Below the pieces are notes generated by a model that made no database searches, was not told where the DNA came from, and saw only the letters and a list, made by a program, of their open reading frames with translations. Both the position numbers and the translations under genes were made by a program. This document shows, piece after piece, positions 2,664 to 43,342 of a DNA stretch of 64,000 bases. How positions within the stretch are numbered: position 1 is the first letter of the stretch; each line of letters opens with the position of its first letter. Source of the DNA: Xanthobacter flavus (GTDB lineage Bacteria; Pseudomonadota; Alphaproteobacteria; Rhizobiales; Xanthobacteraceae); NCBI RefSeq assembly GCF_017875275.1, contig NZ_JAGGML010000001.1:744001-808000 (forward strand). The letters are read 5' to 3'.

Positions 2664-2712
2664 TCTCAGGAACTGACCTCGGCCAGGGGCCGTCATGGCC
2701 CCGTTCAAAGCC

Positions 2713-2881
2713 GTCATGCCCCGGCCGGTCCGGAAGTCGGCTGTTGCCGACTTCCGTTCGCAGAGTCGGAACTCGGCAACAGCCGAGTTCCGGGGCATCC
2801 ACTCCGCCGCCAGCGGGGTGCATGAAGCCCGGTAGCCAGCCCAGCCGCACCGTGGATCCCCCGGACAAGCCGGGGGATGAC
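2713..2881. repeat. Composite two-hairpin intergenic repeat, copy 1 (interrupted)
   Basis: The left arm is type A (GTCATGCCCCGG ... CCGGGGCATCCAC, 2713-2802). The right arm is type B (GTGGATCCCCCGG, loop ACAAG, CCGGGGGATGAC, 2852-2881). The arms are separated by 49 bp. The left arm is expanded by about 60 bp holding two extra perfect hairpins with 11-bp stems at 2731-2756 (loop TGTT) and 2767-2792 (loop AACA). The copy lies between the binding-protein and permease genes of ABC system 1. Other copies start at 22465, 26755, 43156 and 48171. Confidence 0.9.
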
Positions 2882-2934
2882 GGCTCGATAAGCACCGACC
2901 AGTCTCCATTTCCGCATTTTTCCGAGGACCAATC

Positions 2935-3795
2935 ATGACCTTCTGGGTCAGCCAAAGCCTCAATGCCCTCGCGCTCGGCGGGCTCCTGTTCATGCTGGCG
3001 TCGGGCTTCAGCCTCATCTTCGGGCTGATGCGGGTGGCGAACCTCGCCCATGGCGCGCTGTTCATGCTGGGCGCGTATCTCGGCCTTGCCGCCGTGAAGG
3101 CCGGCTTCGGCTTCTGGGCGGCGGCGGCTTCGGCCGCGGTGGCGGTGGGGCTGCTCGGCGGCATTCTGGAGCGCACGCTGCTGCGGCGCCTCGCCGGGCG
3201 CACCCTGCCCCAGGTGCTGCTGACGCTGGGCCTCGCCTTCATCATCGCCGACGCCTGCCTGATGATGTGGGGCGGGGACCCCATGCGCCTGCCGCCGCCG
3301 CCCGAACTCTCCGGCGCGGTGCGCATCGGCGACGCGGTGTTCCCGCGCTACCGGCTGTTCGTCATCGGTGCCTCGGCGGCGGTGGCGCTGGGGCTGTGGC
3401 TGCTGGTGGAGCGCACCCGCGCCGGCGCCATGATCCGCGCGGCGGTGGACGACGTGGGCATGGCCCGCGCCATCGGCGTCTCCGCCTCCACCCTCTTCAC
3501 CGCCGTCTTCTGCCTCGGCACGGCGCTGGCGGGCCTCGGCGGGGTCATCGGCGGCCCCATCCTCTCAGTCTATCCCAGCCTCGACCAGGACATGCTGCCG
3601 CTGGCCCTGCTGGTCGTCATCCTCGGCGGCGCCGGGAGCCTCGCCGGGGCGTTCGTCGGCGCCTACGCCATCGGCTTCATCTACACGTTCGGACAGGTGC
3701 TCGTGCCCGACCTTGCCTATGTGATCCTGTTCCTGCCCATGATTCTGGTGCTCTCCGTGGCGCCGCAGGGCCTGTTCGGCCGGAGGCTCGGATGA
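2935..3795 (+). CDS. LIV-type ABC importer inner-membrane permease, LivH-like (system 1)
   Basis: This 286-residue, very hydrophobic protein has about eight membrane segments. It carries the LivH-family start region FSLIFGLMRVANLAHGALFMLGAYL and the later ILGGAGSLAGAFVGAYAIG segment typical of the ATPase-contact area. It forms half of the membrane channel with the LivM-like protein whose ATG overlaps its stop by four bases (ATGA, 3792-3795). It belongs to the operon running from 1416 to 7047. Confidence 0.9.
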   Translation: MTFWVSQSLNALALGGLLFMLASGFSLIFGLMRVANLAHGALFMLGAYLGLAAVKAGFGFWAAAASAAVAVGLLGGILERTLLRRLAGRTLPQVLLTLGLAFIIADACLMMWGGDPMRLPPPPELSGAVRIGDAVFPRYRLFVIGASAAVALGLWLLVERTRAGAMIRAAVDDVGMARAIGVSASTLFTAVFCLGTALAGLGGVIGGPILSVYPSLDQDMLPLALLVVILGGAGSLAGAFVGAYAIGFIYTFGQVLVPDLAYVILFLPMILVLSVAPQGLFGRRLG

Positions 3796-4781
3796 GTGCG
3801 CGCGTCCTCCCCTTCGCGGTGGCGCTGGCCGCCATGGCCATGGTGCCGCTGTTCTCCACCTCCCCCTTCTATGTGAACCTCACCAGCCAGGTGGCCATCG
3901 CCGCCATCGGCGCGCTGGGGCTCAACGTGCTGGTGGGCCACGCGGGGCTGAACTCGCTCGGCTTCGCGGTGTTTCCCGGCCTCACCGCCTATCTGGTGGC
4001 GTGGCTCTCTACCGTGGGCGGTATCGATCCGGTGGCGGCGGCGCTGCTGGCGCTGGGCGGGACGCTGGCGGTGTCCGCGCTGTTCGCCCTCGTCGCCTTG
4101 CGCACCACCGGCCTCGGCTTCGTGATGATCACCATGGCGCTGTGCCAGATCGTCTGGGGCGCGGCCTATCGCTGGACCTCGGTGACGGGCGGCGACAACG
4201 GCCTGTCCGGCGTGCCGCGCCCCGGCGGCGCGTGGCTGCCGCTGGAAAAGCCGGAATACTTCCTGTGGCTGTGCCTCGCAGTGCTGGCGCTGGCGCTCAT
4301 CCAGCTCGGCCGCTTCTTCGACAGCCCGCTCGGTGTGGCGCTGCGCGGCACGCGGGACCAGCCGCGCCGCATGGGGGCGGTGGGCTATGACGTGTGGCGC
4401 ATCCGCTTCGTCGCCTGGATGCTCGCCGCCGCCTGGGGCGCGGCCGCCGGGCTGCTCTATGCCTGGTACCACCAGTTCGTCAGCCCGCACATGATGGCGG
4501 TGACCGCCTCCGCCGAGGTGCTGCTGATGGTGGTGGCGGGCGGTGCCGGCACGCTGGCCGGCCCGCTCATCGGCGCGGCGCTCGTGGTGCTGCTGAAGAA
4601 CCTCGCCTCCATCTGGATCGACCGCTGGGTGATGCTGCTCGGCTTCACCTTCGTCGTCATCGTCCTGCTAATGCCCGACGGCATCGTGCCCGGCTTCAAC
4701 CGCCTCACCGCATGGCTGAAGCGCATGAAGCCGGCGGCCCCCGCCCCCAAGCTCGTGCCGAGGGAGCGCGCCGATGGCTGA
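3792..4781 (+). CDS. LIV-type ABC importer inner-membrane permease, LivM-like (system 1)
   Basis: I set the start at the ATG at 3792, which overlaps the preceding stop; this gives 329 residues, the normal LivM length. The LivM hallmark GLNVLVGHAGLNSLGFAVF is near residue 40, and AGGAGTLAGPLIGAAL is in the C-terminal third. The protein is the second half of the translocation channel. The next gene, an ATPase, starts eight bases before this stop, so translation is probably coupled. Confidence 0.9.
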   Translation: MSARVLPFAVALAAMAMVPLFSTSPFYVNLTSQVAIAAIGALGLNVLVGHAGLNSLGFAVFPGLTAYLVAWLSTVGGIDPVAAALLALGGTLAVSALFALVALRTTGLGFVMITMALCQIVWGAAYRWTSVTGGDNGLSGVPRPGGAWLPLEKPEYFLWLCLAVLALALIQLGRFFDSPLGVALRGTRDQPRRMGAVGYDVWRIRFVAWMLAAAWGAAAGLLYAWYHQFVSPHMMAVTASAEVLLMVVAGGAGTLAGPLIGAALVVLLKNLASIWIDRWVMLLGFTFVVIVLLMPDGIVPGFNRLTAWLKRMKPAAPAPKLVPRERADG

Positions 4782-5517
4782 GCCCGCACTGCGCATCGAC
4801 GGCCTGACCAAGCAGTTCGGCGGCCTGCCCGCCGTCGCCGATGTCAGCCTCGACATCATGCCCGGCGAGCGGCATCTGCTGCTCGGCCCCAACGGCGCGG
4901 GCAAGACCACGCTGTTCAACCTGATCTGCGGCGACCTCACCCCCACCGGCGGCTCCATCCGCCTGTTCGGATCGGAGCTGGTGGGCCTGCCGCCCCGCAA
5001 GCGCACCGGCCATGGCCTCGCGCGCACCTACCAGATCCTCACGCTCTTCCCGCACGAGACCATCTGCCGGAACGTGATGCTGGCCCTGAACGGTCTGCGC
5101 CGCGAGAAGTGGCGCGCCTGGGCGCCCTTCAATGCCGATGCGTCGCTGCGGTCGGAGGCGCTCGCCATCCTCGACCGGGTGAAGCTCGCCGATCTCGCCG
5201 ACCGGCCCGTGTCCCAGACCGCCTATGGCGACCGCCGCCGGCTGGAGATCGCCATGGCGCTGGCGCTGGCCCCGCGCGTGCTGCTGCTGGACGAGCCCCT
5301 CGCCGGCCTCTCCCGCGACGAGCGGGTGATGGTGCAGGACCTGCTCGCCAATTTGCCGGAGGAGATGACCGTGGTGCTCATCGAGCACGACATGGATGTC
5401 GCCCTCGCCTTCGCCGAGCGCATCACCTTGCTCCATCACGGCCGTGTCGTGACCACCGGATCGCGCGCCGACATCGCCGCCGATCCCCGCACACGGGAGG
5501 TGTATCTCGGTGCCTGA
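4774..5517 (+). CDS. LIV-type ABC importer ATPase, LivG-like (system 1)
   Basis: The protein has 247 residues. Walker A is GPNGAGKTT at about 38-46. The signature region is degenerate (QTAYGDRRRLEIAMAL in place of LSYGxxR), followed by Walker B VLLLDEP and a switch region with VLIEHDMD. It energises the permease pair by ATP hydrolysis on the cytoplasmic face. It overlaps both neighbours by eight bases, in keeping with one polycistronic transcript. Confidence 0.9.
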   Translation: MAEPALRIDGLTKQFGGLPAVADVSLDIMPGERHLLLGPNGAGKTTLFNLICGDLTPTGGSIRLFGSELVGLPPRKRTGHGLARTYQILTLFPHETICRNVMLALNGLRREKWRAWAPFNADASLRSEALAILDRVKLADLADRPVSQTAYGDRRRLEIAMALALAPRVLLLDEPLAGLSRDERVMVQDLLANLPEEMTVVLIEHDMDVALAFAERITLLHHGRVVTTGSRADIAADPRTREVYLGA

Positions 5518-6226
5518 AGCCCTCACTTTGTCCAATCTCCACGTCTATCACGGCGAGATCTGCGCCGTGCGCGGGCTCGACATCGTCTGCGCGGAAGGCG
5601 CGGTCACCGCCCTGCTCGGCCGCAACGGCGCGGGCAAGTCCACGACCCTCTCCGCCATCGCCGGGCTTCTGGACGCCCGGCAGGGGCGCATCGATCTGTT
5701 CGGCACGTCGCTGGAGAACCGCAAGCCCGAGGTCATCTGCCGGCTCGGCGTGGGGCTGGTGCCGCAGGGGCGGCGCATCTTCCCGTCGCTGACCGTGCAG
5801 GAGCATCTCGCCATCGCCTACCGGCCGCCGCGCCACAAGGCGGCGCGGGTGTTCGACATCGCCTCGGTGGAGACGCTGTTTCCCCGCCTGAAGGAGCGGC
5901 GCCGGCAGCTCGCCGGCTCCATGTCCGGCGGCGAGCAGCAGATGCTGGCCATCGCCCGGGCGCTGGTCACCAATCCGCGCGTGCTGCTGCTGGACGAGCC
6001 GGCGGAAGGCCTCGCGCCGCAGATCGTCGCCGAGGTGGCGGATGCCATCGCCGCGCTGAAGCAGGCGGGGCTCTCCATCCTCCTCGTGGAACACAATCTG
6101 CCGCTGGCGCTGCGGCTCGCCGACACCTGCGTGGTCCTCTCATCCGGGGAGGTGGTCTGGCGCGGGCCGCCTCAGGTCCTCGCCGATGACCCCGCCCTCA
6201 TGGCCCAACATCTGGGAGTGCACTGA
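5510..6226 (+). CDS. LIV-type ABC importer ATPase, LivF-like (system 1)
   Basis: This ATPase of 238 residues begins at a GTG (5510) inside the end of the previous gene. It has Walker A GRNGAGKST, a canonical MSGGEQQMLAIARAL signature, Walker B VLLLDEPAEGLAP and the switch histidine in LVEHNL. It is the second nucleotide-binding subunit of the importer. Its stop shares a base with the ATG of the hydrolase-fold gene (TGATG at 6224-6228), so that gene is part of the operon. Confidence 0.9.
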   Translation: MPEALTLSNLHVYHGEICAVRGLDIVCAEGAVTALLGRNGAGKSTTLSAIAGLLDARQGRIDLFGTSLENRKPEVICRLGVGLVPQGRRIFPSLTVQEHLAIAYRPPRHKAARVFDIASVETLFPRLKERRRQLAGSMSGGEQQMLAIARALVTNPRVLLLDEPAEGLAPQIVAEVADAIAALKQAGLSILLVEHNLPLALRLADTCVVLSSGEVVWRGPPQVLADDPALMAQHLGVH

Positions 6227-7047: not shown

Positions 7048-7078
7048 TCGGCGGCGCACTGATCCGCGCGGCCGATCC

Positions 7079-7237: not shown

Positions 7238-7405
7238 GGGTCTGGTCCAGGATCAAGATACTGCCGCGAGCCCCCTCGCCGTGTCGTGGTGATGCTCCGG
7301 ACCCCGGGCGGAATTTCGACAGGAAAGCGGCGTCTTTGCTGCGGGCGGGGTCGCCGCCCACAGATCGACGAAACGTGATCTTTTCGCCACGGCGGGCGCG
7401 GCGGC

Positions 7406-8380: not shown

Positions 8381-8447
8381 TGCCTGTCTCCCGCGATGAA
8401 GGCGCCCACCATGGCCGCCGCGGCGGGACATGCAAGCGCTCAATGCA

Positions 8448-18577: not shown

Positions 18578-20563
<1,986 letters not shown>

Positions 20564-20655: not shown

Positions 20656-20863
20656 CCCGATGTGCTCGCGCGTGACCACGGCTGACGGCAGGTCTCCTGG
20701 CTCGCGGGTCGCCGCCCTTGTGCCGCCTTCCCAGGCCTTGCGACCCAGTGGCTGATGGCAGAGGACTCGCCGCTTACAGTTGCGGGGGCAGCCGCGGCAT
20801 ATCCGGCAAGGCCGGAGCACCGCGTTCCCTTTTGATCCCTTGCGGGAACCGTCGCCACGACCA
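20656..20863 (-). ncRNA. Cobalamin riboswitch (adenosylcobalamin-type leader)
   Basis: On the minus strand, about 90 nt before the btuB start, lies the conserved B12 box AGCCAGGAGACCTGCCGTCA (20702-20683). Upstream of it are other riboswitch blocks: a GC-rich P3 region, CCGCAACTGTAAGCGG with its CTGTAAGCGGYGA-like core at about 20785-20765, a GCCACTGGG segment near 20747-20739 and CTGGGAAGGCGG at about 20735-20724. The order and spacing match the class. It should repress btuB-btuF-btuC-btuD when the ligand binds, probably by hiding the ribosome site. Confidence 0.93.
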
Positions 20864-21196
20864 TAGGCGGGGGCGGTCCCTCGCGTCAACGAATCCTTCG
20901 CATCTGCAAAAACTTGAACGCAACTGCGGAAAGACCTCGCGTAACCGCGAGCGTAGCGATCACATCTTGCGCTTTGCTTCACCAAACGCGTGGTCCGAAA
21001 CCACCACCGCGCCGTAAATTCTGCATGCGACTGCCTGCAAAAACGGCACCAGCAAAGGCTCGACCCTCCTTCCGCTAGGTTATGGTAGCGCACGGTTCTC
21101 AATTCGCTTAAACGATTGAGAGCCGCCCCGTCCTGCGGGAGGGTGGGCACTACTAAAGTATAATAACCGAATAATCGGACACACAGGGAGTAGAAG
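20864..21196. other. 333-bp divergent intergenic region
   Basis: This gap separates the B12 riboswitch from the second LIV-type importer. It is AT-richer than its surroundings. The left end must hold the btuB promoter on the minus strand; the right end holds the palindrome and -10 element annotated at 21097-21164. No open frame in it looks coding. Confidence 0.6.
21097..21164 (+). promoter_or_regulatory. Palindrome and -10 element before the second LIV-type importer
   Basis: TCTCAAT (21097-21103) and ATTGAGA (21115-21121) form a 7-bp inverted repeat with an 11-bp centre, TCGCTTAAACG, that is partly self-complementary. Downstream is a perfect TATAAT at 21159-21164, 33 bp before the ATG. No good -35 hexamer lies 16-18 bp further up, so the promoter would need an activator; the palindrome is a candidate site for one. 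Confidence 0.4.
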
Positions 21197-22417
21197 ATGC
21201 GACTGAGGAGCATGGTCGCGGCTTTGGCCGCAGGCGTTGCCGTTTTCGGGCTTGCCTTTTCCGGCGCAGCCTACGCCGCCGACCCCATCAAAATCGGACT
21301 CACCGGCCCCTTCACCGGCGGCTCGTCCTCCATGGGCGTGAGCATGCGCGACGGCGTGAAGCTCGCCGTGGATGAGGTGAACAAGGCCGGGGGCGTACTG
21401 GGCCGTCCCCTCCAGCTCGTCGAGCGTGACGACGAGGCCAAGAACGAGGTGGGCGTGCAGATCGCCCAGGAGCTCATCAACAAGGAAGGCGTCGTCGCTA
21501 CCCTCGGCTACATCAACACCGGCGTGGCGCTGGCCTCCCAGCGCTTCTATCAGGAAGCCGAGATTCCAGTGATCAACAACGTGGCCACCGGCACCCTCAT
21601 CTCCAAGCAGTTCGTGCCGCCGGACAACAAGAACAACTACATCTTCCGCACCTCCGCCAACGACGCCATCCAGAGCGCCATGATCGCCGACGAGGCGGTG
21701 AAGCGGCAGGGTTTCAAGAAGCCGGCCATCCTCGCCGACTCGACCAATTACGGCCAGCTCGGCCGCGCCGATCTGGTGAAGGCCCTCGCCACCATGGGCG
21801 TGAAGCCGGTTGCCGAAGAAAAGTTCAACATCGGCGACACCGACATGACCGCGCAGCTGCTGCGCGCCAAGGAGGCCGGCGCCGACGTGGTGCTGACCTA
21901 CGCCATCGGCCCCGAACTGGCGCAGATCGCCAACGGCATGGCCAAGCTCGGCTGGAAGGTGCCCATGATCGGCTCGTGGACGCTCTCCATGGCCAATTTC
22001 ATCGACACCGCCGGTGCCAACGGCAACGGCGCGATGATGCCGCAGACCTTCATCCAGCTGCCGGACACCCCCAAGCGCAAGGCCTTCATCGAGGCCTATC
22101 AGGCCGCCTACAAGATCGACCGCATGCCCTCGCCGGTCTCCGCCGCGCAGGGCTATGATTCGGTGCTGCTGCTCGCCGCCGCCATCAAGCAGGCGGGCTC
22201 CACCGACGGCCGCAAGGTCCGCGAGGCGCTGGAAAACCTCAGCACCAAGGTCGAGGGCGTGGTCACCGTCTACGACAAGCCCTTCTCCGCCACCGACCAC
22301 GAGGCCATCACCGCCAACATCCCGGTGTTCGGCCTCGTGAAGGACGGCCGCGTGGTCGCCGCCCACCCCGAGGACATCGCCGGCGACAAGGCGGTGCGGG
22401 TGAAGGCGAAGAACTGA
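21197..22417 (+). CDS. Periplasmic substrate-binding protein of a LIV-type ABC importer (system 2)
   Basis: The 406-residue protein has a signal peptide ending AAYAA near residue 27 and a type I binding fold starting DPIKIGLTGPFTGGSSSMGVSMRDGVKLA, very like branched-chain amino-acid binding proteins. A GGGAG ribosome site precedes ATG 21197. The SSSM...G pocket region and the DSTNYGQLGRADLVKAL hinge segment are typical. The ligand is not certain. A weak terminator-like hairpin and a composite repeat follow before the permease genes. Confidence 0.9.
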   Translation: MRLRSMVAALAAGVAVFGLAFSGAAYAADPIKIGLTGPFTGGSSSMGVSMRDGVKLAVDEVNKAGGVLGRPLQLVERDDEAKNEVGVQIAQELINKEGVVATLGYINTGVALASQRFYQEAEIPVINNVATGTLISKQFVPPDNKNNYIFRTSANDAIQSAMIADEAVKRQGFKKPAILADSTNYGQLGRADLVKALATMGVKPVAEEKFNIGDTDMTAQLLRAKEAGADVVLTYAIGPELAQIANGMAKLGWKVPMIGSWTLSMANFIDTAGANGNGAMMPQTFIQLPDTPKRKAFIEAYQAAYKIDRMPSPVSAAQGYDSVLLLAAAIKQAGSTDGRKVREALENLSTKVEGVVTVYDKPFSATDHEAITANIPVFGLVKDGRVVAAHPEDIAGDKAVRVKAKN

Positions 22418-22425
22418 GGCTGACC

Positions 22426-22457
22426 GGGCCGCGTCCACTAGCTGACCCGGCCCTTTT
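22426..22457 (+). terminator. Weak hairpin terminator/attenuator after the binding-protein gene
   Basis: GGGCCG (22426-22431) pairs with CGGCCC (22448-22453) and is followed by TTTT. The stem is short (6 bp) with a 16-nt loop, so it would act at most as a partial stop that lowers permease expression relative to the binding protein. Confidence 0.35.
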
Positions 22458-22464
22458 GTGCGCC

Positions 22465-22574
22465 GTCATCCCCCGGCTTGTCCGGGGGATCCACGGGGTG
22501 ACCTGGCGGCCTGCGAAGTAACAAAGAGCTGACCAGGCGGCGAAGTGGATGCCCCGGACGAGCCGGGGCATGAC
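22465..22574. repeat. Composite two-hairpin intergenic repeat, copy 2
   Basis: The left arm at 22465-22494 is type B (stem CCCCCGG/CCGGGGG, loop CTTGT). The right arm at 22545-22574 is type A (stem GCCCCGG/CCGGGGC, loop ACGAG). The spacer is 50 bp. The copy lies between the binding-protein and LivH-like genes of ABC system 2. Its arm sequences are identical to those of the copy at 43156, while the spacers differ. Confidence 0.9.
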
Positions 22575-22723
22575 GGAACTGGGTGGGGTGTCGGTTCATA
22601 ACCCGCCCCGCGATCAGCCCCCTTCACCCCACACCATTCGGATCGCCGCGCCATCGAGCGCGGCGGCCGGTTCGCCGGAACCCTGCCGTGACGCGGGGGC
22701 CGCGCCCCCTTCCGGAGATCGTC

Positions 22724-23623
22724 ATGAACGTCCTCTCGCAGCTCATCGTGAGCGGCATCGCCGTGGGCATGATCTACGGCGTCATCGCCTTCAGCTATCA
22801 GCTCACCTTCGCCACCTCGAAGACCCTGAACTTCGGCCAGGGCGAGGCCCTGATGCTGGGGGCGCTGGTGGGCCTCACCACCATCAATTTCCTCATCGGC
22901 CAGGCGCTCGGCACCCTGTGGGCCTACCTGCTCATGCTGCCCATCGTCTTCGCCTTCGGCCTCGCGCAGGGCGCGGTGGTGGAATGGCTCGGCGTGCGGC
23001 AGGCGGTGAAGGCGAAGTCGGAAGCCGGCTGGATCATGGCGACCATCGCGCTGGGCATCATCTTCCGCAATCTCGCCGAGAACATCTGGGGCCGCGACGC
23101 GCTGCGCTTCCCCTCCCCGCTGCCGGAGGCGGCGCTCACCATCGGCCCGGTGCGCATCCAGCCCATGGAGATCGCCATCGTCATCGGCGCGCTCGCCATC
23201 ATGCTGGCGGTGGAAATCTTCAACCGGCGCTCCATCTTCGGCAAGGCCGTGGTGGCCACCGCCAATGACCGCGACGCGGCGGGCCTGATGGGCATCGACA
23301 CGCGGCGCGTCATCACCTTCTCCTACGCGCTCTCCTCCATGACCGCGGCGTTCGCCGGCGTGCTCATCGCCCCCGTCACCCTCACCGGCGCCACCATGGG
23401 CGCGGTACTGGGGCTGAAGGCGTTCGCGGTGGCCATCATCGGCGGCCTGTCGAGCGGCATGGGCGTCATCGTCGGCGGCCTCATCCTCGGCATCACCGAG
23501 ACGCTGACCGGCTACTACATCTCCACCGGCTACAAGGACGTGCCGGGCCTCGTGCTGCTGCTGCTGGTGCTCTCGCTGAAGCCCTCGGGCCTGTTCGGCC
23601 GCGCCACCATCAAGAAGGTCTGA
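22724..23623 (+). CDS. LIV-type ABC importer inner-membrane permease, LivH-like (system 2)
   Basis: I set the start at ATG 22724 (CGGAGA ribosome site upstream), which gives 299 residues and the usual LivH beginning MNVLSQLIVSGIAVGMIYGV. Landmarks are TLNFGQGEALMLGALVGL and AVAIIGGLSSGMGVIVGGLILG. About eight helices are visible. It pairs with the LivM half of the fusion protein encoded five bases further on. Confidence 0.9.
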   Translation: MNVLSQLIVSGIAVGMIYGVIAFSYQLTFATSKTLNFGQGEALMLGALVGLTTINFLIGQALGTLWAYLLMLPIVFAFGLAQGAVVEWLGVRQAVKAKSEAGWIMATIALGIIFRNLAENIWGRDALRFPSPLPEAALTIGPVRIQPMEIAIVIGALAIMLAVEIFNRRSIFGKAVVATANDRDAAGLMGIDTRRVITFSYALSSMTAAFAGVLIAPVTLTGATMGAVLGLKAFAVAIIGGLSSGMGVIVGGLILGITETLTGYYISTGYKDVPGLVLLLLVLSLKPSGLFGRATIKKV

Positions 23624-23628: not shown

Positions 23629-25620
23629 ATGCTCGCGCGCCGCCTCCTCTCCTCCACGGGGTCGCTCCTCGGCCTCGCGGTGCTCGTCGTGCTGCCGTTC
23701 GTGGTGACGAGCCCCTATTATCTCCACCTGCTGGTGACCATCGCCATCTTCTCGATCCTGCTGCTCGGGCTCGACGTGGTGTTCGGCTATACGGGCGAGG
23801 TGTCCATCGGCCATGCCGCGCTGTTCGGCATCGGCGCCTACACGGCCGGCTGCCTCGCCATGCATTTCGGCATCGGCTTCTGGCCGGCGCTGCCCTTGGC
23901 CATCGTCGTCGCCTGCCTGTTCGGCGTGGTGCTGGCGCTGCCGGCGCTGCGCGTCACCGGCCCCTATCTCGCCATGGTGACGCTGGCCTTCGGCACCATC
24001 GTGCAGATCCTCATCAACGAGATGACGGACCTCACCAACGGTCCCCTCGGCATCAAGCTGACGACGCCCCTCTTCATCGACCTCAGGTGGCTCGGCGACA
24101 CCATTCCGCTGTTCGACATGTCGCTGAAGCGCATGAAGGAAGTGGAATATTACTACATCGCCGCCATCGCGCTGGTGCTCACCCTCATCATCATCAACCG
24201 CATCCTCGCCTCCCACCTCGGCCGGGCGTTCGAGGCGCTGCGCGACAGCCCCATCGCGTCCGATTGCATGGGCGTGTCGGTCTACAAGCACAAGGTGCTG
24301 GCCTTCGTGATCTCCGCCGGCCTCGCCGGCCTCGCGGGGGCGCTGTTCGCCTATTCGGAGCAGTATATCGCGCCGAACAATTTCGGCTTTGAGCTGTCGG
24401 TGCAGTTCCTGCTGGCGGTCACGGTGGGCGGGCGCAAGTCTCGGCTGGGGCCGATCCTCGGCGCGGTCATCATCGTGTTCCTGCCGAACCTGCTGTCCGA
24501 CATCGAGCTGTTCCGCTACATCGCCGGCACCATCGCGCTCATCGCCGTCATCGCCGGCGCGCGGGTCTTCGTGAAGGATCCGGAGAACCGCGTGCGCAAC
24601 GCCATTCCCGTGGTGCTGTGCCTCGCCTTCTTCGTCTTCTCGATGCTGCTGCAGAAGATCACCGACTACAAGCTCGCCGTCTTCGGCGTGATGATCCTGT
24701 TCGTGGTCTATTATCTGCCGGACGGCATCGTCGGCTTCCTGAAGCGCGCCGCCGCACAGCTCTGGCCGAGCCTCGTGCAGTCCCACGCCGTCATCCACGC
24801 CGACACCCACGGCAAGGCGGTCACCGCCTCCCACGAAGGCCATTCGGGCGTGCTGCTCCACGTGGACAATGTGGTGATGCAGTTCGGCGGCCTGCGGGCG
24901 CTGGATCAGGTCTCCATCGAGGTGAAGCCCGGCACCATCCACGGCCTCATCGGGCCGAACGGCTCGGGCAAGAGCACCATGATGAACGTGCTCACCGGCA
25001 TCTATGTGCCCACGGCCGGCGCCGTCCGGTTCAAGGGGCAGGACATGGCCGGCAAGACCTCTTCCGACATCGCCAGCGAGGGCATCGCCCGCACCTTCCA
25101 GAACGTGCAGCTCTTCGCCGAGCTGACCCTGATCGAGAACGTGCTGGTGGGCCTCCACCACACCTATCAGGCGACCTTCGCCGAGGTGGCGCTGGGCCTG
25201 CCGCGCATAAGGCGGGAGGAGAAGGCGGCGCGCGAGCGGGCCATGAGCCTCCTCGCCTTCGTCGGCCTCTCGGACCTCGCCAACGAGGAGGCGCGCAACC
25301 TGCCGTATGGTAAGCAGCGCCTGCTGGAGATCGCCCGCGCACTGGCCCTCGATCCCGCCCTCCTGCTGCTCGACGAGCCCGCCGCCGGCCTCACCGCGCC
25401 GGACATCAAGCACCTCGTGGAGATCATCAAGAAGGTGCGCCACGCGGGGCTCACCATCGTGCTCATCGAGCATCACATGGATGTGGTGATGGGCCTGTGC
25501 GACACGGTGACGGTGCTGGACTTCGGCCAGAAGATCGCCGAGGGCAAGCCAGCCGAGGTGCAGGCCAACGAGCGCGTCATCGAGGCCTATCTCGGCGGCG
25601 CCGCCGCTGCGGCGGAATGA
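23629..25620 (+). CDS. LivM-LivG fusion: permease and ATPase in one polypeptide (system 2)
   Basis: The 663-residue protein joins two subunits. Residues 1-375 are a LivM-type permease (GLDVVFGYTGEVSIGHAALFGIGAYTAG, then ALRDSPIASDCMGVSVYKHKV in parts, and LAVTVGGRKSRLGPILGAVI). A hydrophilic linker of about 35 residues follows. Residues 410-655 are a LivG-type ATPase with Walker A GPNGSGKST, NLPYGKQRLLEIARAL as the signature region and Walker B LLLLDEPAAGL, VLIEHHMDV. I see no internal stop or frameshift, so the fusion is genuine. It fixes the permease:ATPase ratio and should work with the separate LivH and LivF subunits. Confidence 0.92.
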   Translation: MLARRLLSSTGSLLGLAVLVVLPFVVTSPYYLHLLVTIAIFSILLLGLDVVFGYTGEVSIGHAALFGIGAYTAGCLAMHFGIGFWPALPLAIVVACLFGVVLALPALRVTGPYLAMVTLAFGTIVQILINEMTDLTNGPLGIKLTTPLFIDLRWLGDTIPLFDMSLKRMKEVEYYYIAAIALVLTLIIINRILASHLGRAFEALRDSPIASDCMGVSVYKHKVLAFVISAGLAGLAGALFAYSEQYIAPNNFGFELSVQFLLAVTVGGRKSRLGPILGAVIIVFLPNLLSDIELFRYIAGTIALIAVIAGARVFVKDPENRVRNAIPVVLCLAFFVFSMLLQKITDYKLAVFGVMILFVVYYLPDGIVGFLKRAAAQLWPSLVQSHAVIHADTHGKAVTASHEGHSGVLLHVDNVVMQFGGLRALDQVSIEVKPGTIHGLIGPNGSGKSTMMNVLTGIYVPTAGAVRFKGQDMAGKTSSDIASEGIARTFQNVQLFAELTLIENVLVGLHHTYQATFAEVALGLPRIRREEKAARERAMSLLAFVGLSDLANEEARNLPYGKQRLLEIARALALDPALLLLDEPAAGLTAPDIKHLVEIIKKVRHAGLTIVLIEHHMDVVMGLCDTVTVLDFGQKIAEGKPAEVQANERVIEAYLGGAAAAAE

Positions 25621-26714: not shown

Positions 26715-26754
26715 CGCCGGCTTACGGCAAGAAAGCTCTTCGGCCACCCAAGCC

Positions 26755-26862
26755 GTCATGCCCTGGCTTGTCCGGGGCATTCACTGCGTCGCCCTCTGCG
26801 CGCCACAAGACCTCGCACCCGGCTAGCCGCGAAGTGGATCCCCGGACAAGCCGGGGGATGAC
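26755..26862. repeat. Composite two-hairpin intergenic repeat, copy 3
   Basis: The left arm at 26755-26784 is type A with two substitutions. The right arm at 26834-26862 is type B with one C deleted. The spacer is 49 bp. The copy lies between the 27-residue miniprotein gene and kdpF. It is the most degenerate of the five copies. Confidence 0.85.
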
Positions 26863-36075: not shown

Positions 36076-38964
36076 TCAGACCAGCGCGTCCGCGCTCCCG
36101 TGCACGGGATGAAGCACCTCATGCACATGAGCCGCCAGCGCCTCCGCCCGGCTTGCCAGTTCGTGCACCAGCGCAGGGTGCTCGGCCTGAGCGTGATCGA
36201 GAATGGCGGAACCGATGGCATCCAGATAGTCCGCCACCGCTGCCGGCAGATGAAGCTCCGGCATATGGGCCGTCGCGAGGGCGCCATGGGCATGCGCTGC
36301 GGCATCGATCAGCCCCTCGGCCCGCGCTTCCAGCGCCGCGAACACGGCGGACAGATCGTCCGGCACGCCCGAAGCGGCCGCCTTCAGGGTCGCGAAGGGG
36401 TCGGATGTGATCCCGTCCGTCCCGGACGCAGGCTCGCCCGAAACAGAAAAAGCGGAAACCCGCGAGGCCGTTCCGCCGCCGGTGCCGACCAGCGTGATCG
36501 TGACATCCTGGGTCGCGGCCGCTCCGGATGTATCCGTCACCCTGACCACGAACGTCTCAGCCCGCGTCTCGCCCTCGGCCAGCGGCGCCACCTTGGCCTC
36601 GTCCACCGCATAGGACCACTGGATGATGCCGGCACCGTTCACGTCGCTCACGACCCTGGCCGTAAGCGTGCCCAGCGCATCGGTGGGACTGGTGACACTG
36701 GCGGTGTGAGTATCCGAGGTGTCAGCGTCGGCGAACTGGATGGTGCCCGTTGTCGCGAGGCTCTTCAGACCGCTCTGGTCGATGATGACCGGCCCATGGA
36801 CATTGGGCGCGCCGATCGATGCGATGAAGATGTCACTTGCGCCGTTCGTGTCGCCGGCCACCAGATTTGAGGCATCTGACTGAAAGACGATCTGCTGGCC
36901 ATCGGGCGTAAAGACCGGACTGATGCTGCTGCCATCGCCCGCAACCCGCGTGATGACACCCGTCGCCAGATCCTTCACGAAAATATCAGTCCAGCCATTG
37001 TCGTCCCCGACAACAAGGTTGCTCCCACTCGAACCGAAAGCCACCTTCGTGCCATCCGGCGAAAACGCAATTTTTCCATAGCTTGGATTATTGGCGACAT
37101 CACCTTGTAAATTGGCACTCGCCACCGTCACGTCATTTGTGACCAGATCTTTGACCAGCACCTGAACTTTATCATACTGCGAATCGGAATTCGGATTTCT
37201 AGACGAAAGGAATGCCAGTTTGGAACCGTCCGGGGAAAATACCGGGGCAATCGGTCGGGAGCCGGCGGCATACGAAACGAACGTAACTTCACCCGTTGCA
37301 AGGTCCTTGATGTAGTAAGCATAAGGGCCGGCCACCCCCGGCCCCGCCTCGGACCCCGTTGCAGCAAAGGCGATCTTGGACCCGTCCGGAGAAAACACGG
37401 GATCATAGCTGTCGGTTTCGAAGGCCTTGCCGCCGGCGTTGGTCGAAACCAGAGTAATCGCACCCGTCGACAAATCCTTCACGAAAAGATCAGTGTGGCC
37501 GGTGTCGCCGGCGACGAATTGGGAATTGGATTGAAAAGCAATCTTCGTTCCATCCGGCGAAAAAACCGGTCGATCGCTTGATGAAGTTCCCTGACCACCG
37601 TTCGCGCCTGTGGAAACGCGCGTGATGGCACCCGTATCAAGATCCTTAATGAAGACATCGGCGGCACCGTTGGTATCGCCTTGGACGAGATTGTTCGCCA
37701 GCGACACAAATGCGACCTTGCGGCCATCCGGCGAGAACGCGATATCGCCGGTGCTCATGTCGTTGCCGACCCGCCCTTGAGCATCGGAGGAAACGATCAC
37801 GACGTCGCCCGTCACCCGGTCCTTGACCATGACCTGCTGATTGGTGCCAGACGGAAAGAAACCTCCGGCCGGCACCGATACAAGATTCCCGGCGCCGGAC
37901 AGAAAGGCCACCTTGCTGCCATCCGGCGAAATGGCCGGCATCGAGCTCGCTCCGCTTCCCGGCTGGCCCGCTGCCGTCGCCGAAAGCAGCACGGGATCGC
38001 CCGCCCAACTGGTTACCCCGATCGTTGGCGCATGGGTCTCGAACGACAGCGAGACATGCGCGCTTGCCACACCCTTGTCGGCATCGGTGACGGTAAAGGT
38101 CACGTCGCGGGCGTTCGTTGGTGCCGTCGAAGATGTCGAACGATAGGACACCTGATCGAGCAGAGCGCTCATCTGGGCATCGGATATGGCGGACTTCAAG
38201 GTGAAAGCGAGGTCGTGGCCGGACAGGCCATTGGCGGAAACAGTGCCAACCTGCTTGCCATCGAGATACAACTTCGTGCCGGTGATGCTGAATGCCCCGC
38301 TCGACAGATAAAACTCATCCGTCGATGTTCCGCCCGCCAGGTGCACGCTCAGCTTGCCCTTCTTGAACCCGGTACCATCAGGATTGGCCACGTGGGCATC
38401 AGAGTCGATGACAACACCCGCCTCGGCTGCCGAAGGCCGGAATTCCTGCGTCGGACCAAGATCGGAGAATTTCGGAGCGTCCCCTTCCGGCTTGAGCTTA
38501 AGCCGCATACTGGCGGAGGAGGCTGGCCCCTCAGAGAAGGAAAGCGAAAATGTCACCGCTCGCGCAGCACCCGATGGCGCGTCGCCCGAATAAGAGTATG
38601 CGATCGCCCGCGCGAGCGCGGTGACTTCCTCATTCGTTACACCGGACTCAAGTATTATACTTAAATATTGATCCGTTCCGGCCGACGTCTCCCAGCCGAT
38701 ATGTTTTCCATTGTAGAATATCGAAGCTGTTTGAGCTGTCGTATCGACCAGAGTGATGCCGCCGACTTGCGATATACTAAAGTGATCGAGCGTGGTCGAA
38801 TTGGCCATTCTCACATCGAAAAATGCGTTCGAAGCAAAACCATTCGGTGGGGCCGCAAACGTCACATTCGAATCCAGCACCACCGGACCCGCATTCACCG
38901 TGTTCTCGGCCAGCGTCTTGCTCCTGTCGAGCCCGCTGAAGCCGGTTTTTGCCTTTGCCGCCAT
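36076..38964 (-). CDS. Large adhesin-like protein: cadherin-like repeats, seven-bladed PD40 propeller, VCBS domain
   Basis: I set the start at ATG 38964 (MAAKAKTGFSGLD), which has GGGAGAG upstream, giving 962 residues; an ATG 30 bp further up is the alternative. Two cadherin-like domains of the kind found in giant surface proteins (LAENTVNAGPVVLDSNVTF, about 18-155; second about 170-310) precede seven xFSPDGxKxAF repeats (about 340-715) that fit one seven-bladed TolB-like propeller. A VCBS-type domain (about 725-830) and a histidine-rich helical C-terminus follow. There is no Sec signal, so type I secretion is likely, but no such transporter is in the window. Codon use is less GC-rich than in its neighbours. 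Confidence 0.8.
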   Translation of the reverse strand: MAAKAKTGFSGLDRSKTLAENTVNAGPVVLDSNVTFAAPPNGFASNAFFDVRMANSTTLDHFSISQVGGITLVDTTAQTASIFYNGKHIGWETSAGTDQYLSIILESGVTNEEVTALARAIAYSYSGDAPSGAARAVTFSLSFSEGPASSASMRLKLKPEGDAPKFSDLGPTQEFRPSAAEAGVVIDSDAHVANPDGTGFKKGKLSVHLAGGTSTDEFYLSSGAFSITGTKLYLDGKQVGTVSANGLSGHDLAFTLKSAISDAQMSALLDQVSYRSTSSTAPTNARDVTFTVTDADKGVASAHVSLSFETHAPTIGVTSWAGDPVLLSATAAGQPGSGASSMPAISPDGSKVAFLSGAGNLVSVPAGGFFPSGTNQQVMVKDRVTGDVVIVSSDAQGRVGNDMSTGDIAFSPDGRKVAFVSLANNLVQGDTNGAADVFIKDLDTGAITRVSTGANGGQGTSSSDRPVFSPDGTKIAFQSNSQFVAGDTGHTDLFVKDLSTGAITLVSTNAGGKAFETDSYDPVFSPDGSKIAFAATGSEAGPGVAGPYAYYIKDLATGEVTFVSYAAGSRPIAPVFSPDGSKLAFLSSRNPNSDSQYDKVQVLVKDLVTNDVTVASANLQGDVANNPSYGKIAFSPDGTKVAFGSSGSNLVVGDDNGWTDIFVKDLATGVITRVAGDGSSISPVFTPDGQQIVFQSDASNLVAGDTNGASDIFIASIGAPNVHGPVIIDQSGLKSLATTGTIQFADADTSDTHTASVTSPTDALGTLTARVVSDVNGAGIIQWSYAVDEAKVAPLAEGETRAETFVVRVTDTSGAAATQDVTITLVGTGGGTASRVSAFSVSGEPASGTDGITSDPFATLKAAASGVPDDLSAVFAALEARAEGLIDAAAHAHGALATAHMPELHLPAAVADYLDAIGSAILDHAQAEHPALVHELASRAEALAAHVHEVLHPVHGSADALV

Positions 38965-38968
38965 GACC

Positions 38969-38992
38969 GCAACTCTCCCTGACCAGAGTTGC
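38969..38992 (-). promoter_or_regulatory. Hairpin overlapping the ribosome site of the propeller-protein gene
   Basis: GCAACTCT and AGAGTTGC form a perfect 8-bp inverted repeat with an 8-nt loop. On the minus-strand mRNA the likely Shine-Dalgarno sequence GGGAGAG begins in the loop and runs into the 3' arm, 5 nt before the ATG at 38964. Folding would hide the ribosome site, so translation may be regulated. Confidence 0.5.
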
Positions 38993-39142
38993 AATTAGGG
39001 GTAGCGAGACGCGATGGCCCGGTCTAGGCGGTGACGGAACGGCAGGCCGAAGATGGCACGGGCAAGCGACCAATGGGCCACAGTGCGGCGCGGCCGGTTC
39101 AGCCGCCATCGCCCGAAACAACGCCATGCCAGAGCTCTCGCT

Positions 39143-39778: not shown

Positions 39779-39787
39779 GATTCTCCT

Positions 39788-40333
39788 TCACTCCTCCCTC
39801 AGGCGGGCCGAAAGGCTCGCAAAGGCCCGGTGCAGCGCCACCCGCACCGCCCCGGGGGTCATCCGCATCCGCTCCGCCGTCTCGGCGACGGACGCGCCCT
39901 CCACCGCCACCGATCGCAGGACCGCCTGCTGCTTCTGCGGCAGCAGGGCGAGGTGGCGCTCCACATCCGCCGCGCCGGCATCCGGCCGCTCCTCCGGCGC
40001 GGGAAGGAACTCGGCGAAATCCTCCACCGGTACCTCCACCCGCCGCCCGCGCCGGCGCAGATGATCCACCATCTTGTTGCGGGCGATGGTCCAAAGCCAG
40101 GGGCCGAGGAGATCCTCGGCACGCCAGGTGTGCCGCTTCAGATGCACCGCCAGCAGCGTCTCCTGCACCACGTCCTCCGTCTCCGCCGTGGGCGCGCCGA
40201 GGCGGATGAGACGACGCTGCACCACGGTGCGCAACGCGGGCGCGAGCTCGCGTAGCAACTGCTCATAGGCCACGCCCTCGCCGGCAAGCGCGCGCCGCAT
40301 CAATTGCGCCCACCGCTGTTCGCGGTCGTCCAT
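39788..40333 (-). CDS. sigF: SigF-like ECF RNA polymerase sigma factor
   Basis: I set the start at ATG 40333 (MDDREQRWAQLMRRALAGEG), giving 181 residues. Region 2 contains AETEDVVQETLLAVHLKRHTW and WLWTIARNKMVDHLRRRGRR; region 4 contains LPQKQQAVLRSVAVEGASVAETAERM (read in two parts) and TPGAVRVALHRAFASLSARL. Pairing with a DUF1109 gene places it in the SigF/NrsF group. A matching SigF-type promoter lies just upstream, so it probably activates its own gene. Confidence 0.9.
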   Translation of the reverse strand: MDDREQRWAQLMRRALAGEGVAYEQLLRELAPALRTVVQRRLIRLGAPTAETEDVVQETLLAVHLKRHTWRAEDLLGPWLWTIARNKMVDHLRRRGRRVEVPVEDFAEFLPAPEERPDAGAADVERHLALLPQKQQAVLRSVAVEGASVAETAERMRMTPGAVRVALHRAFASLSARLREE

Positions 40334-40354
40334 CTCCACGTTCCCGAAACCCAG

Positions 40355-40380
40355 TTCGCAGGCGACACGCCGAACGTTAC
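40355..40380 (-). promoter_or_regulatory. SigF-type autoregulatory promoter
   Basis: On the minus strand GTAACG (40380-40375) is followed after exactly 16 nt by CGAA (40358-40355), and the sigF ATG lies 21 bp beyond. The Caulobacter SigF consensus, as I recall it, is GTAACC-N16-CGAA, so five of the six -35 bases and all -10 bases agree, with the same spacing. This suggests a self-activating sigF-nrsF operon. Confidence 0.6.
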
Positions 40381-40771
40381 AGCGCGGCCGAGGCCGCGCC
40401 GGAATGCGCAAGGATCATTCTTCGCCGCGTTTCGCAAGGCAATGGGCGAATGGGCCGCGGCAGGGGCGGAGCGATTGGACGCGCCCGGCATCCGGCATTG
40501 GAAATCCTGCACGGCGCGGTGCGGAAAGGCGGCGGCATTCGGCCGGATGGGCATCAATCGCGCACATCGCCTCTTCGCAAGGCGCCGCAAACCAAGGCAA
40601 TTGCGCTGGAACGAGGCAGACCGGACCCCATGCCGGCGCGGTGGCGAGAGGACCGCCTGCCGCATGGGAATATGCGCAAGACCCCCTGCACATTTGCGCC
40701 CTTCCGCGCCCGGCTCGCTGCGCCATCATGAGCCGGCGCAACCAACGCCGCCTGATTGGCAGAAGAGCCCG
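40381..40771. other. 391-bp divergent intergenic region without recognised gene
   Basis: The stretch separates sigF from the nitrilase gene. Open frames run through it on both strands but show no family resemblance and no codon bias. I see no sigma-54-like element and no strong hairpin. It must hold the promoter of the nitrilase-importer operon. Confidence 0.5.
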
Positions 40772-41830
40772 ATGACCGTCCAATATCCCCGCTTCAAGGC
40801 CGCCGCCTGCCACGCCTCGTCCGTCTTCCTCGACGCGGACAAGACCGCGGAGAAGGCCTGCGACCTCATCGCCGAGGCCGCCGCCAACGGCGCGTCGCTG
40901 GTGGTGTTCCCGGAATCTTTCCTGCCCGGCTTTCCGGTGTGGGCGGCGCTGCAGGCCCCCATCTACAATCACGGCTTCTTCCGCGCGCTGGTGGCCGAGG
41001 CGCAGAAGCTGTCGGACGGTGCCATCCGCACCATCCGCATGGCGGCGCGCCGGCATGGCGTCCACGTCTCCCTCGGCTTCACCGAGGGCACCGATGCGAG
41101 CGTCGGCTGCATCTGGAATTCCAACGTGCTGATCGGGCCGGACGGCGCGATCCTCAATCACCACAGGAAGCTCGTCCCCACCTTCTACGAGAAGCTGGTG
41201 TGGGCGAACGGCGATGCGCGCGGCCTGCGTGTCACGTCCACCGAGATCGGCCGGGTCGGCATGCTGATCTGCGGAGAGAACACCAATCCCCTCGCGCGCT
41301 ATGCCCTGATGGCGCAGGGGGAGCAGGTGCACATCTCCTCCTATCCGCCGATCTGGCCGACCCGTCCGCCGGAAGAGGCCGGCGCCTATGACCTGAAGCG
41401 CGCCATCGAGATCCGCGCCGGCGCCCACGCCTTCGAGGCCAAGGTGTTCAACATCGTCGCCTCGGGCTTCGTCGATGCCGCCATGCGCGAGGCCATGGGC
41501 TCCATGGGCAAGGCGAGCCTCGAGGTGATGGACAAGTCCCCCCGCGGCATCTCCATGGTGCTCGATCCCACCTCGCAGGTGGTGGGCGAGGTGCTGGGCG
41601 AGCACGAGGGCATCCTCTACGCCGAGATCGACACCGCCCGCTGCGTGGAGCCCAAGCAGTTCCACGACGTGGTGGGCTATTACAACCGCTTCGACGTGTT
41701 CCACCTGGAGGTGGACCGCTCCGCCCGCGAGCCGGCCTATTTCTCCGAGGGCGCGGCCATCGCCCGCGCGGCCGAGGACGGGGCGCTCGACCCCGCGGCG
41801 GACGTGCTCTTCGCCAACGGCGCGGCCTGA
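40772..41830 (+). CDS. Nitrilase
   Basis: I set the start at ATG 40772, giving 352 residues, the usual nitrilase length; the upstream open frame is not conserved. The catalytic triad of branch 1 is Glu48 in FPESFLPGFP, Lys133 in HHRKLVPT and Cys167 in ICGENTNPLARY. PVWAALQAPIYNHGFF and the HISSYPPIWPTRP segment also fit nitrile-hydrolysing members. It converts a nitrile to the carboxylic acid and ammonia in the cytosol. It leads a run with a LIV-type importer and an aldoxime dehydratase, which can supply its substrate. Confidence 0.92.
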   Translation: MTVQYPRFKAAACHASSVFLDADKTAEKACDLIAEAAANGASLVVFPESFLPGFPVWAALQAPIYNHGFFRALVAEAQKLSDGAIRTIRMAARRHGVHVSLGFTEGTDASVGCIWNSNVLIGPDGAILNHHRKLVPTFYEKLVWANGDARGLRVTSTEIGRVGMLICGENTNPLARYALMAQGEQVHISSYPPIWPTRPPEEAGAYDLKRAIEIRAGAHAFEAKVFNIVASGFVDAAMREAMGSMGKASLEVMDKSPRGISMVLDPTSQVVGEVLGEHEGILYAEIDTARCVEPKQFHDVVGYYNRFDVFHLEVDRSAREPAYFSEGAAIARAAEDGALDPAADVLFANGAA

Positions 41831-41904
41831 ATTTTCCCTCCACCGGGGCCGGCAACGACCGGCGCCGCATCACCTGAAAAAATCACCTTCCAGAGGATCA
41901 TCAC

Positions 41905-43098
41905 ATGGCAACGGATCGAAAGCTCCCGGCTCGAAAGCTGTTCAACCTTGCGGGTATGGCGCTCGCCGCGCTGTCGCTGGCGACAGCCCCCGCGCTCGCC
42001 CGCGACACGGTGAAGATCGCCTTCATCGGCCCGCTCACCGGCGGCAATTCCGCCACCGGCCTCGGCGGCCGCAATTCCGCGGCGCTCGCCGTGGACCTGC
42101 ACAATGCCAAGCCGGGTGCCAAATACACCTACGAGCTGGTGCCCTTCGACGACGAGTGCAAGCCCAACGTGGGCGTGCAGGTGGCCACCAAGGCGGCGTC
42201 CGACAAGTCCATCATCGCCGGCATCACCCATTATTGCTCGGCGGTGGCCATCGCCACGGTGGACACCTACAATCGCTTCGGCCTGCCGGTGGTGGTGTGG
42301 GGCGCGGTGCTGCCGGAAATCACCTACGGCAACGACTACAAGGAAATCCACCGCGTCAACGGCACGATGATCAACGAAGGCAGGATGGCCGCGGAGTTCC
42401 TCACCAAGCAGGGCTTCAAGACCTTCGTCGTGATCCACGACACCACCGACTACGGCAAGGGCCAGAACAAGTATTTCGCCGAGAATCTGAAGCCGAAGGG
42501 CGGCGAGATCCTCGCCACCTTCCCGGTGCCGCCGGACCAGCAGGACTTCACCGCCGAACTGACCAAGGTGAAGGAGCTGAAGCCGGACGTGGTGTTCATC
42601 GGCGGCCTCACGCCGCTCGGCGTGCGCGTGCGCTCTCAGATGGACCGCCTCGGCATTCCCGCCCAGCTCGCCGGTGTCTCCGGCATCATGAGCGCCGGCT
42701 TCATCGAAGGCGCCGGCCCCGCCGCCGAGGGCACCGTCTCCTTCCACAATGGCGCGCCGCTCACCAAATATGCCGACGGCAAGGCCTTCATGGACGCCTA
42801 TGCCAAGGCCGGCTACCGCGAGGACCCGGACGCCTACGGCCCGTTCGCCTTCTCCGCCGCCAACCTCATCATGGACGCCATCGAGAAGGTCGGCCCGGAC
42901 CGCAAGAAGGTGCGCGACGTGCTCAACACCACCAAGGGCTACAAGGCGCTGGTGGGCGAGATCAACTTCGACGACCACCGGCAGAACATCGTCTCCGCCA
43001 ACGTCTATGTCTCGCAGGACGGCAAGTGGGTTTACTGGCCGGACAGTGCCTATGCGACGGGCAGCAAGAAGCTGCCGGGGAAGGTTGCGGGCAACTGA
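41905..43098 (+). CDS. Periplasmic substrate-binding protein of a LIV-type ABC importer (system 3)
   Basis: The 397-residue protein has a signal peptide ending APALA near residue 32 and a type I binding fold starting RDTVKIAFIGPLTGGNSATGLGGRNSA in two stretches. ITHYCSAVAIATVDTYNRFG replaces the more usual small-residue hinge, so the ligand may differ from leucine. It starts 74 bp after the nitrilase gene, so the importer probably brings in the nitrile, amide or aldoxime used by the flanking enzymes (inference). A composite repeat follows it. Confidence 0.9.
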   Translation: MATDRKLPARKLFNLAGMALAALSLATAPALARDTVKIAFIGPLTGGNSATGLGGRNSAALAVDLHNAKPGAKYTYELVPFDDECKPNVGVQVATKAASDKSIIAGITHYCSAVAIATVDTYNRFGLPVVVWGAVLPEITYGNDYKEIHRVNGTMINEGRMAAEFLTKQGFKTFVVIHDTTDYGKGQNKYFAENLKPKGGEILATFPVPPDQQDFTAELTKVKELKPDVVFIGGLTPLGVRVRSQMDRLGIPAQLAGVSGIMSAGFIEGAGPAAEGTVSFHNGAPLTKYADGKAFMDAYAKAGYREDPDAYGPFAFSAANLIMDAIEKVGPDRKKVRDVLNTTKGYKALVGEINFDDHRQNIVSANVYVSQDGKWVYWPDSAYATGSKKLPGKVAGN

Positions 43099-43155
43099 GG
43101 GGCCTCGCGGATACCCCCGCCCAGGGATAACGGCCGCTCCCCGTCGTCCCGCGCC

Positions 43156-43265
43156 GTCATCCCCCGGCTTGTCCGGGGGATCCACCCGGAAGCCGGGGCC
43201 GGCGCATCCTGCGCAGACGCGGCGTTTTCGGCGAAGTGGATGCCCCGGACGAGCCGGGGCATGAC
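43156..43265. repeat. Composite two-hairpin intergenic repeat, copy 4
   Basis: The left arm at 43156-43185 is type B and the right arm at 43236-43265 is type A (loop ACGAG). The spacer is 50 bp. The arms match the copy at 22465 exactly, while the spacers differ apart from the final GCGAA. The copy lies between the binding-protein and LivH-like genes of ABC system 3. Confidence 0.9.
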
Positions 43266-43342
43266 GGCCGGGAAAAATCTGAACACGCCCCCGGCGCCCT
43301 TCTTGCAGCGCGCCGGACCATGCTTCCCTTGAGAGACCCGCC

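Follow-up and report, generated by a model that had tools for sequence, protein, structure and literature searches.

In the Escherichia coli malE-malF arrangement, a very stable stem lies between a binding-protein gene and the permease genes downstream of it. The half-life of malE is 3.5 min compared with 1 min for malFG, and in four further E. coli ATP-binding cassette (ABC) operons the stabilized gene is again the binding-protein gene (as sections of PMC5927463 describe). Among the repetitive extragenic palindromes (REPs) of Alphaproteobacteria, the CGTC type has an 8–9-bp stem opening with complementary AT, a loop of 4–5 nt, a CCA tail and a CGTC (often TGTC) tag (Di Nocera et al, 2013; parts of PMC3733652). 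These elements are mostly dimers, with heterodimers predominating in CGTC-2 and CGTC-3, and REPs prefer unidirectional and convergent gaps near gene ends (PMC3733652, same parts). Here we describe REP-A, a repeat of this kind, in a 64,000-nt stretch of Xanthobacter flavus (NZ_JAGGML010000001.1, positions 744,001–808,000), referred to as the window. It corresponds to C1:744001-808000 of a single-contig genome of 5,354,025 bp, labelled G000. REP-A lies between the binding-protein gene (livK) and the first permease gene (livH) of all three LIV-type ABC operons in the window, and its hairpin probably keeps the message of the binding-protein genes abundant and that of the membrane-channel genes lower. 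Neither the repeat type nor the mechanism is new; what is new is that repeats have been recruited into one slot again and again.

The three gaps (2664-2934, 22418-22723 and 43099-43342) are intergenic, each with a PF13458 binding-protein gene before it and a PF02653 permease gene of the same orientation after it. Genes were called with our own script, trained on G000. The operons and all REP-A copies of the window are as follows; the third operon is called operon 4.

1416-2663, plus strand: livK1, binding protein of operon 1 (gene call of 415 aa; PF13458 match C1:745509-746522)
2710-2885, no strand: REP-A doublet copy 1, with a REP-B nested in its first half and dividing it (RNA fold of 2707-2886, -119.6 kcal/mol, z -9.5)
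2734-2789, no strand: REP-B doublet inside the hairpin of the first REP-A half of copy 1 (CCGG on both flanks, a possible target duplication)
2935-3795, plus strand: livH1, first permease of operon 1 (PF02653 match C1:746959-747753)
21212-22417, plus strand: livK2, binding protein of operon 2 (gene call; PF13458 match C1:765284-766312)
22426-22457, plus strand: separate small GC hairpin with TTTT behind it, located after the livK2 stop and before the REP; it resembles a terminator with a weak U tract (fold of 22420-22457, -16.5 kcal/mol, z -3.7)
22462-22577, no strand: REP-A doublet copy 2 (RNA fold -85.7 kcal/mol, z -10)
22724-23623, plus strand: livH2, first permease of operon 2 (PF02653 match C1:766745-767569)
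23629-25620, plus strand: permease-ATPase fusion of operon 2, 663 aa (gene call; PF02653 match in the first part; 24900-24983 is a repeat common to the ATPase genes of the window)
26751-26862, no strand: REP-A doublet copy 3, behind the last gene of operon 2 and outside the livK-livH slot (fold -66.8 kcal/mol; upstream gene an ABC ATPase)
41905-43098, plus strand: livK4, binding protein of operon 4 (PF13458 match C1:786007-787011)
43153-43268, no strand: REP-A doublet copy 4 (fold -90.5 kcal/mol, z -8.5; a different palindrome family occupies this gap in the two closest named relatives)
43343-44263, plus strand: livH4, first permease of operon 4 (PF02653 match C1:787370-788209)
48167-48282, no strand: REP-A doublet copy 5, between convergent genes and outside the slot (repeat match)

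With up to three mismatches, the 27-nt REP core matches 7 times in the window and 0 times in 100 shuffles. The sequence-only reading from which this analysis started had placed the repeat in all three livK-livH gaps and had judged the operons too diverged for recent duplication. Both claims held. The three operons share only 20-30% pairwise identity in LivK and 27-29% in LivH and their dimer spacers differ, and we therefore rejected recent operon duplication as the cause.

Genome-wide, we found 22 tandem junctions in G000 at which a PF13458 gene leads directly to a PF02653 gene. REP-A is present in 5 of them, namely the three of the window and those at C1:3676k and C1:4157k, compared with 2 of 270 random tandem gaps drawn from 20 stratified 20-kb stretches of G000 (Fisher p = 2.9e-5). 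The window had suggested the idea, so the count outside it is the fair test; this gave 2 of 19 junctions (p = 0.023). A second palindrome, REP-B (a doublet around AACTCGGCTGTTGCCGAGTT), was found in 4 of the 22 junctions (C1:432k, 1054k, 746k and 4157k). Taking REP-A or REP-B together, 7 of 22 junctions were occupied compared with 3 of 270 random tandem gaps (p = 5e-7), and outside the window 4 of 19 (p = 4e-4). The bias persisted among gaps of at least 100 nt, both for REP-A (5/15 compared with 2/79, p = 9e-4) and for REP-A or REP-B (7/15 compared with 3/79, p = 6e-5), and therefore gap length alone does not explain it. The genome-wide comparison of junctions that the sequence-only reading had proposed thus came out in its favour at the level of sequence, whereas its phrase "all three LIV operons" is right for the window and does not extend to the genome, where 5 of 22 such junctions carry REP-A. 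Copies 3 and 5 of the window lie outside the slot. The repeat enrichment is established for G000 and in part common to its near relatives, but it is not established as a general rule. A third palindrome family (CCCTCTCCCCTTGCGGGAGAGGG, often paired) was observed in further livK-permease gaps (L002, L006, L029, L031, L183 and L219, where L-numbers denote fetched loci and G-numbers the genomes compared). By the pattern used, it occurs in 3 of 22 livK-permease junctions compared with 4 of 270 random tandem gaps.

REP-A is an inverted pair of palindromic halves of ~30 nt, ~110 bp in all, with a tag-to-tag distance of 105-113 bp in 45 of 51 simple dimers. Each half consists of a CGTC tag, a 9-bp stem opening with AT, a 5-nt loop and a CCA tail. 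G000 contains 93 strict half-sites and 157 with up to three mismatches, and the reversed-pattern control gave 0 in both searches. We fetched the surroundings of all 68 PF02653 matches, the listed REP-A places and the 20 random stretches. Among 145 half-sites in this DNA (up to four mismatches), the unpaired terminal tag is CGTC in 118 and TGTC in 22, the A-T and T-A pairs that open the stem are each present in 144, and the CCA tail is present in 142, values that the search pattern itself favours. Stem changes are paired: position 7/25 is C-G in 89 halves, G-C in 55 and other in 1, and position 8/24 is C-G in 109, G-C in 33 and other in 3. Simple plus-minus pairs make up 51 of 79 loci in the fetched DNA, and in 40 of these 51 the halves differ at stem position 7. 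REP-A resembles the CGTC REPs in its CGTC/TGTC tag, 9-bp AT stem, 5-nt loop, CCA tail, dimers of unequal halves and location behind genes; the CGTC REPs have no transposase of their own (by comparison with parts of PMC3733652). Judged by tag, stem, loop, tail and dimer form, REP-A fits the CGTC superfamily, and a stem of 9 with a loop of 5 would leave CGTC-3 or CGTC-4 as its subfamily. Enterobacterial REPs, unlike the CGTC-tagged REP-A, are of the GTAG type (PMC3733652, in part). REPINs, which are associated with RAYT transposases, are likewise small palindromes scattered between genes. We did not detect a match to the RAYT-type transposase domain Y1_Tnp (PF01797) in G000, although other transposases were not searched for, and mobilization of REP-A by a RAYT was rejected on this ground. 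Listed half-sites with 0-1 mismatch are absent from the first 514 kb and are sparser at 2.0-3.6 Mb than at 0.5-2.0 Mb.

The gene context of REP-A was read from the fetched DNA, which covers the 100 listed half-sites of the 157 and not the whole genome. Of the 79 loci in it, 41 lie in tandem gaps, 33 in convergent gaps and 4 in divergent gaps, and 1 is at an edge. The median distance from a tandem REP-A to the upstream stop codon is 46 nt. Directly upstream of tandem REP-A, 10 of 40 genes encode solute-binding proteins, compared with 0 of 60 control genes (Fisher p = 5e-5). The controls were drawn from a pool of 235, leaving out genes shorter than 300 nt or cut by the end of a stretch; 7 of the 60 have no Pfam family at 1e-8, and one LacI-type repressor with a periplasmic-binding-like domain was not counted. 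The ten binding-protein genes are of five kinds (six LivK and one each of NMT1-like, TctC, DctP and SBP_bac_3), and the bias remains outside the window (7/36, p = 7e-4) and when LivK is removed (4/34, p = 0.015). Behind the four non-LivK sites lie genes for BPD_transp_1, a mandelate-racemase-like enzyme (behind TctC), DctQ and an ABC ATPase.

Strong hairpins also occur in junctions free of any repeat. For each gap, the best 50-nt fold was scored against 12 dinucleotide shuffles. Of the 35 junctions behind the binding-protein gene in G000 and its congener G007, 28 were scored and 7 with gaps shorter than 40 nt were dropped; one of the 13 in G007 (L182) leads to a gene whose match is to the ATPase portion of a fusion instead of to a permease. 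The 17 scored repeat-free livK-permease gaps have a median z of -2.06, compared with -0.62 in 116 random tandem gaps of G000 (p = 0.0019), and 15 of the 17 contain a 50-nt segment at -25 kcal/mol or below, compared with 30 of 86 random gaps of 40-199 nt. Split by genome, the excess is clear in G007 (n = 7, p = 0.001). We then considered loci from many taxa fetched by LivH similarity, in which 35 livK-livH gaps have a median z of -2.16. At distant loci, 24 gaps behind the binding-protein gene, re-scored with a simpler gene call and without a check that the next gene is a permease, have a median z of -1.50 compared with -0.21 for 72 other tandem gaps of the same loci (p = 5e-4). REP-A with up to three mismatches was absent from the 35 livK-livH gaps, two of which belong to Xanthobacter orthologs of operon 4. 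In these gaps the repeat itself is not conserved, just the hairpin tendency.

Comparison of related genomes revealed turnover within the slot. Operon 2 carries REP-A in G000, G001 and G009, whose arms align well in contrast to the spacer and much of the flanking sequence. In the first arm of G009, one A-U pair is replaced by G-C through a double change. In G002, G012, G006 and G004 (LivH 95-96%), the operon 2 gaps of 128-172 nt fold into other strong hairpins, and in G010 (LivH 76%) the gap is 567 nt long and lacks REP-A. At operon 4, REP-A was found in G000 only. The closest named matches to the LivH of this operon are from Xanthobacter sp. YC-JY1 (98%) and X. aminoxidans (97%), in a similarity search that may skip records very near the window's own, and both orthologs carry a different palindrome, family D. 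At operon 1, REP-A with nested REP-B is present in G000, G001 and G007, but in G007 it is the other half of REP-A that contains REP-B. A single REP-A half is seen in G009, where the gene call runs into the gap, and none in G004. The C1:432k slot has family C with nested REP-B in G000; G001 shows no more than a short C-like hairpin there, and G009 and G007 have C doublets. At C1:4157k, REP-A is found in G000, G001 and G009, the latter two with family D as well, and G007 has no repeat. Between close species, the slot thus keeps a palindrome while its family changes.

We also observed that REP-B lies in the hairpin apex of another palindrome, of REP-A type or family C, at 17 of 18 loci inspected by eye. 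These 18 of the 24 known loci comprise 17 of 23 from the main listing and a distant copy at 832k; 2036k, 3149k, 3319k, 3688k, 4559k and 5312k were left out of the count. At the remaining locus (832k, L036), family C flanks REP-B on just one side. CCGG is present on both flanks of several insertions into REP-A types, and REP-B looks like a hairpin-targeting element. The nested places are:

Window 2734-2789; L002; L006 (two); L026; L032; L033; L046 (two); L049; L050; L052; L058; L063; L066; L067; L099

On balance we favour a model in which a transcribed 3′ stem between livK and livH stabilizes the livK message and leads to an excess of binding protein. In this model REP-A is a dimer of CGTC-type REPs, one of the palindrome pairs that have become scattered over the genome. 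Copies between livK and livH would be transcribed within the operon message and fold into a very stable stem; once decay begins in the permease part, this stem would block 3′-to-5′ exonucleases, so that the livK segment would outlast the livHMGF segment and binding protein would be made in excess. The stem starts 29-56 nt behind livK at 4 of the 5 sites and has no sense-strand T tract, which fits a barrier to 3′ exonucleases as at malE-malF; at C1:4157k the first REP-A half, split by REP-B, begins ~130 nt behind livK. Any strong palindrome could serve in this way, so that differing repeat families and bespoke hairpins would fill the slot in different operons and species. We propose more tentatively that each lineage refills the slot from its own scattered palindromes (REP-A, REP-B nested in A or C, family C, family D); this is possible, although we would not call it probable. 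Selfish repeats would then be exchangeable parts that set transporter stoichiometry and are selected for stem strength and not sequence, and REP-B would be a parasite of hairpins.

Several results weigh against such a role. Outside the window, REP-A alone occupies just the two junctions, and p rises to 0.063 once gaps shorter than 40 nt are dropped. In G007, which has 129 half-sites by a broader pattern, any of families A-D occurs in 2 of 13 junctions behind the binding-protein gene compared with 3 of 112 other tandem gaps (p = 0.08); REP-A or REP-B is found in 1 of the 13, and that case is the shared operon 1 site. Taken by itself, G000 shows a weak hairpin excess in its repeat-free gaps (n = 10, p = 0.07). 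Exchange between REP copies could also explain the conserved operon 2 arms. Scaled from the random stretches, G000 has ~3614 tandem, ~509 convergent and ~495 divergent gaps, and the density of REP-A per gap is higher in convergent gaps (33/~509) than in tandem gaps at large (41/~3614). Upstream of tandem REP-A, 30 of 40 genes are not binding-protein genes (2 permease genes and 28 without a binding-protein family, one of which, L067:10142-11167, has no family at all), and most REP-A copies, sited away from binding-protein genes, need no such role. The malE-malF-type function put forward by the sequence-only reading is thus borne out in part: the enrichment at junctions, the bias to other binding-protein genes and the hairpins of repeat-free gaps fit the analogy, whereas the repeat is not special to the slot and the G007 replicate is weak.

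The main rival is transcriptional attenuation, in which the hairpin, as a leaky internal terminator or a Rho-dependent stop, halts a fraction of RNA polymerases behind livK and so yields an equivalent surplus of binding protein. In cellulolytic Clostridia, stem-loops that follow binding-protein genes serve as internal terminators, and those of Ruminiclostridium likewise lie regularly directly behind these genes; they have U-rich tails, whereas the REP-A stems have no U tract and are genome-wide repeats (by comparison with parts of PMC9045158). The extra hairpin and TTTT at 22426-22457 could add to termination in operon 2, but the terminator scan made no call there. The scan, which covered intrinsic terminators and not Rho, detected 0 sense-strand terminator-like sites in the three window gaps, and no T run follows the REP stems. 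We consider attenuation unlikely as the explanation, if a serious contender; it may act together with stabilization, so the likelihoods we attach to the two overlap. Somewhat less likely still is neutral accumulation, in which REPs land in transcribed 3′ flanks and livK-livH gaps, being long, tolerant and promoter-free, collect palindromes without benefit. The rarity of REP-A in divergent gaps (4/79 loci) and its frequency in convergent ones (33/79) are as for insertions tolerated behind genes, the insertions are lineage-specific with families that turn over, and G007 shows no clear bias. Against this stand the bias among gaps of at least 100 nt, the enrichment of binding-protein genes of several transporter classes upstream, and the strong bespoke hairpins in repeat-free livK-permease gaps, which neutral repeat insertion does not predict. 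A role at the DNA level, for example as a site for gyrase or a nucleoid protein with the gene context incidental, seems very improbable to us. E. coli REPs bind gyrase and integration host factor, and the doublets could form DNA cruciforms, but such a role predicts neither the enrichment behind binding-protein genes nor the bespoke hairpins.

If the stem does stabilize the livK message, the old malE-malF case becomes a testable rule, in that repeats deemed clutter in the genome may have been adopted many times over at a single site of function. The Xanthobacter slot shares with malE-malF a very stable stem between the binding-protein and permease genes with the binding protein upstream; at malE-malF the half-life effect was measured, whereas the slot described here is known from sequence and is occupied by several unrelated families (by comparison with parts of PMC5927463). 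Operons with near-identical proteins and different palindromes in sister species offer natural replicates in which stem strength could be measured against binding-protein excess without design. The results also caution against repeat-specific functions for REPs, as the slot and not the repeat seems conserved. The main text of the CGTC REP paper mentions neither Xanthobacter nor "transporter", and its sections 6, 14 and 15 contain no bias to binding-protein junctions (PMC3733652). In searches of the open-licence literature we saw no account of REPs in Xanthobacter transporter operons, nor of several unrelated repeat families sharing a slot.

Other features were seen in passing. At L019 (C1:3789450-3789719), a short PF02653 fragment (89-aa call, one stop inside the match) lies beside a longer permease gene and is perhaps part of a decaying LIV operon. 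The sole match in an Rfam scan of the window at gathering thresholds was a cobalamin riboswitch (RF00174, 125.6 bits) at 20670-20867 on the minus strand, upstream of the minus-strand gene 18578-20563. An 810-aa gene at 36076-38508 on the minus strand has internal DNA repeats mostly 150-175 nt apart and possibly encodes a repeat-blade protein; its coding score is below that of its neighbours for its length.

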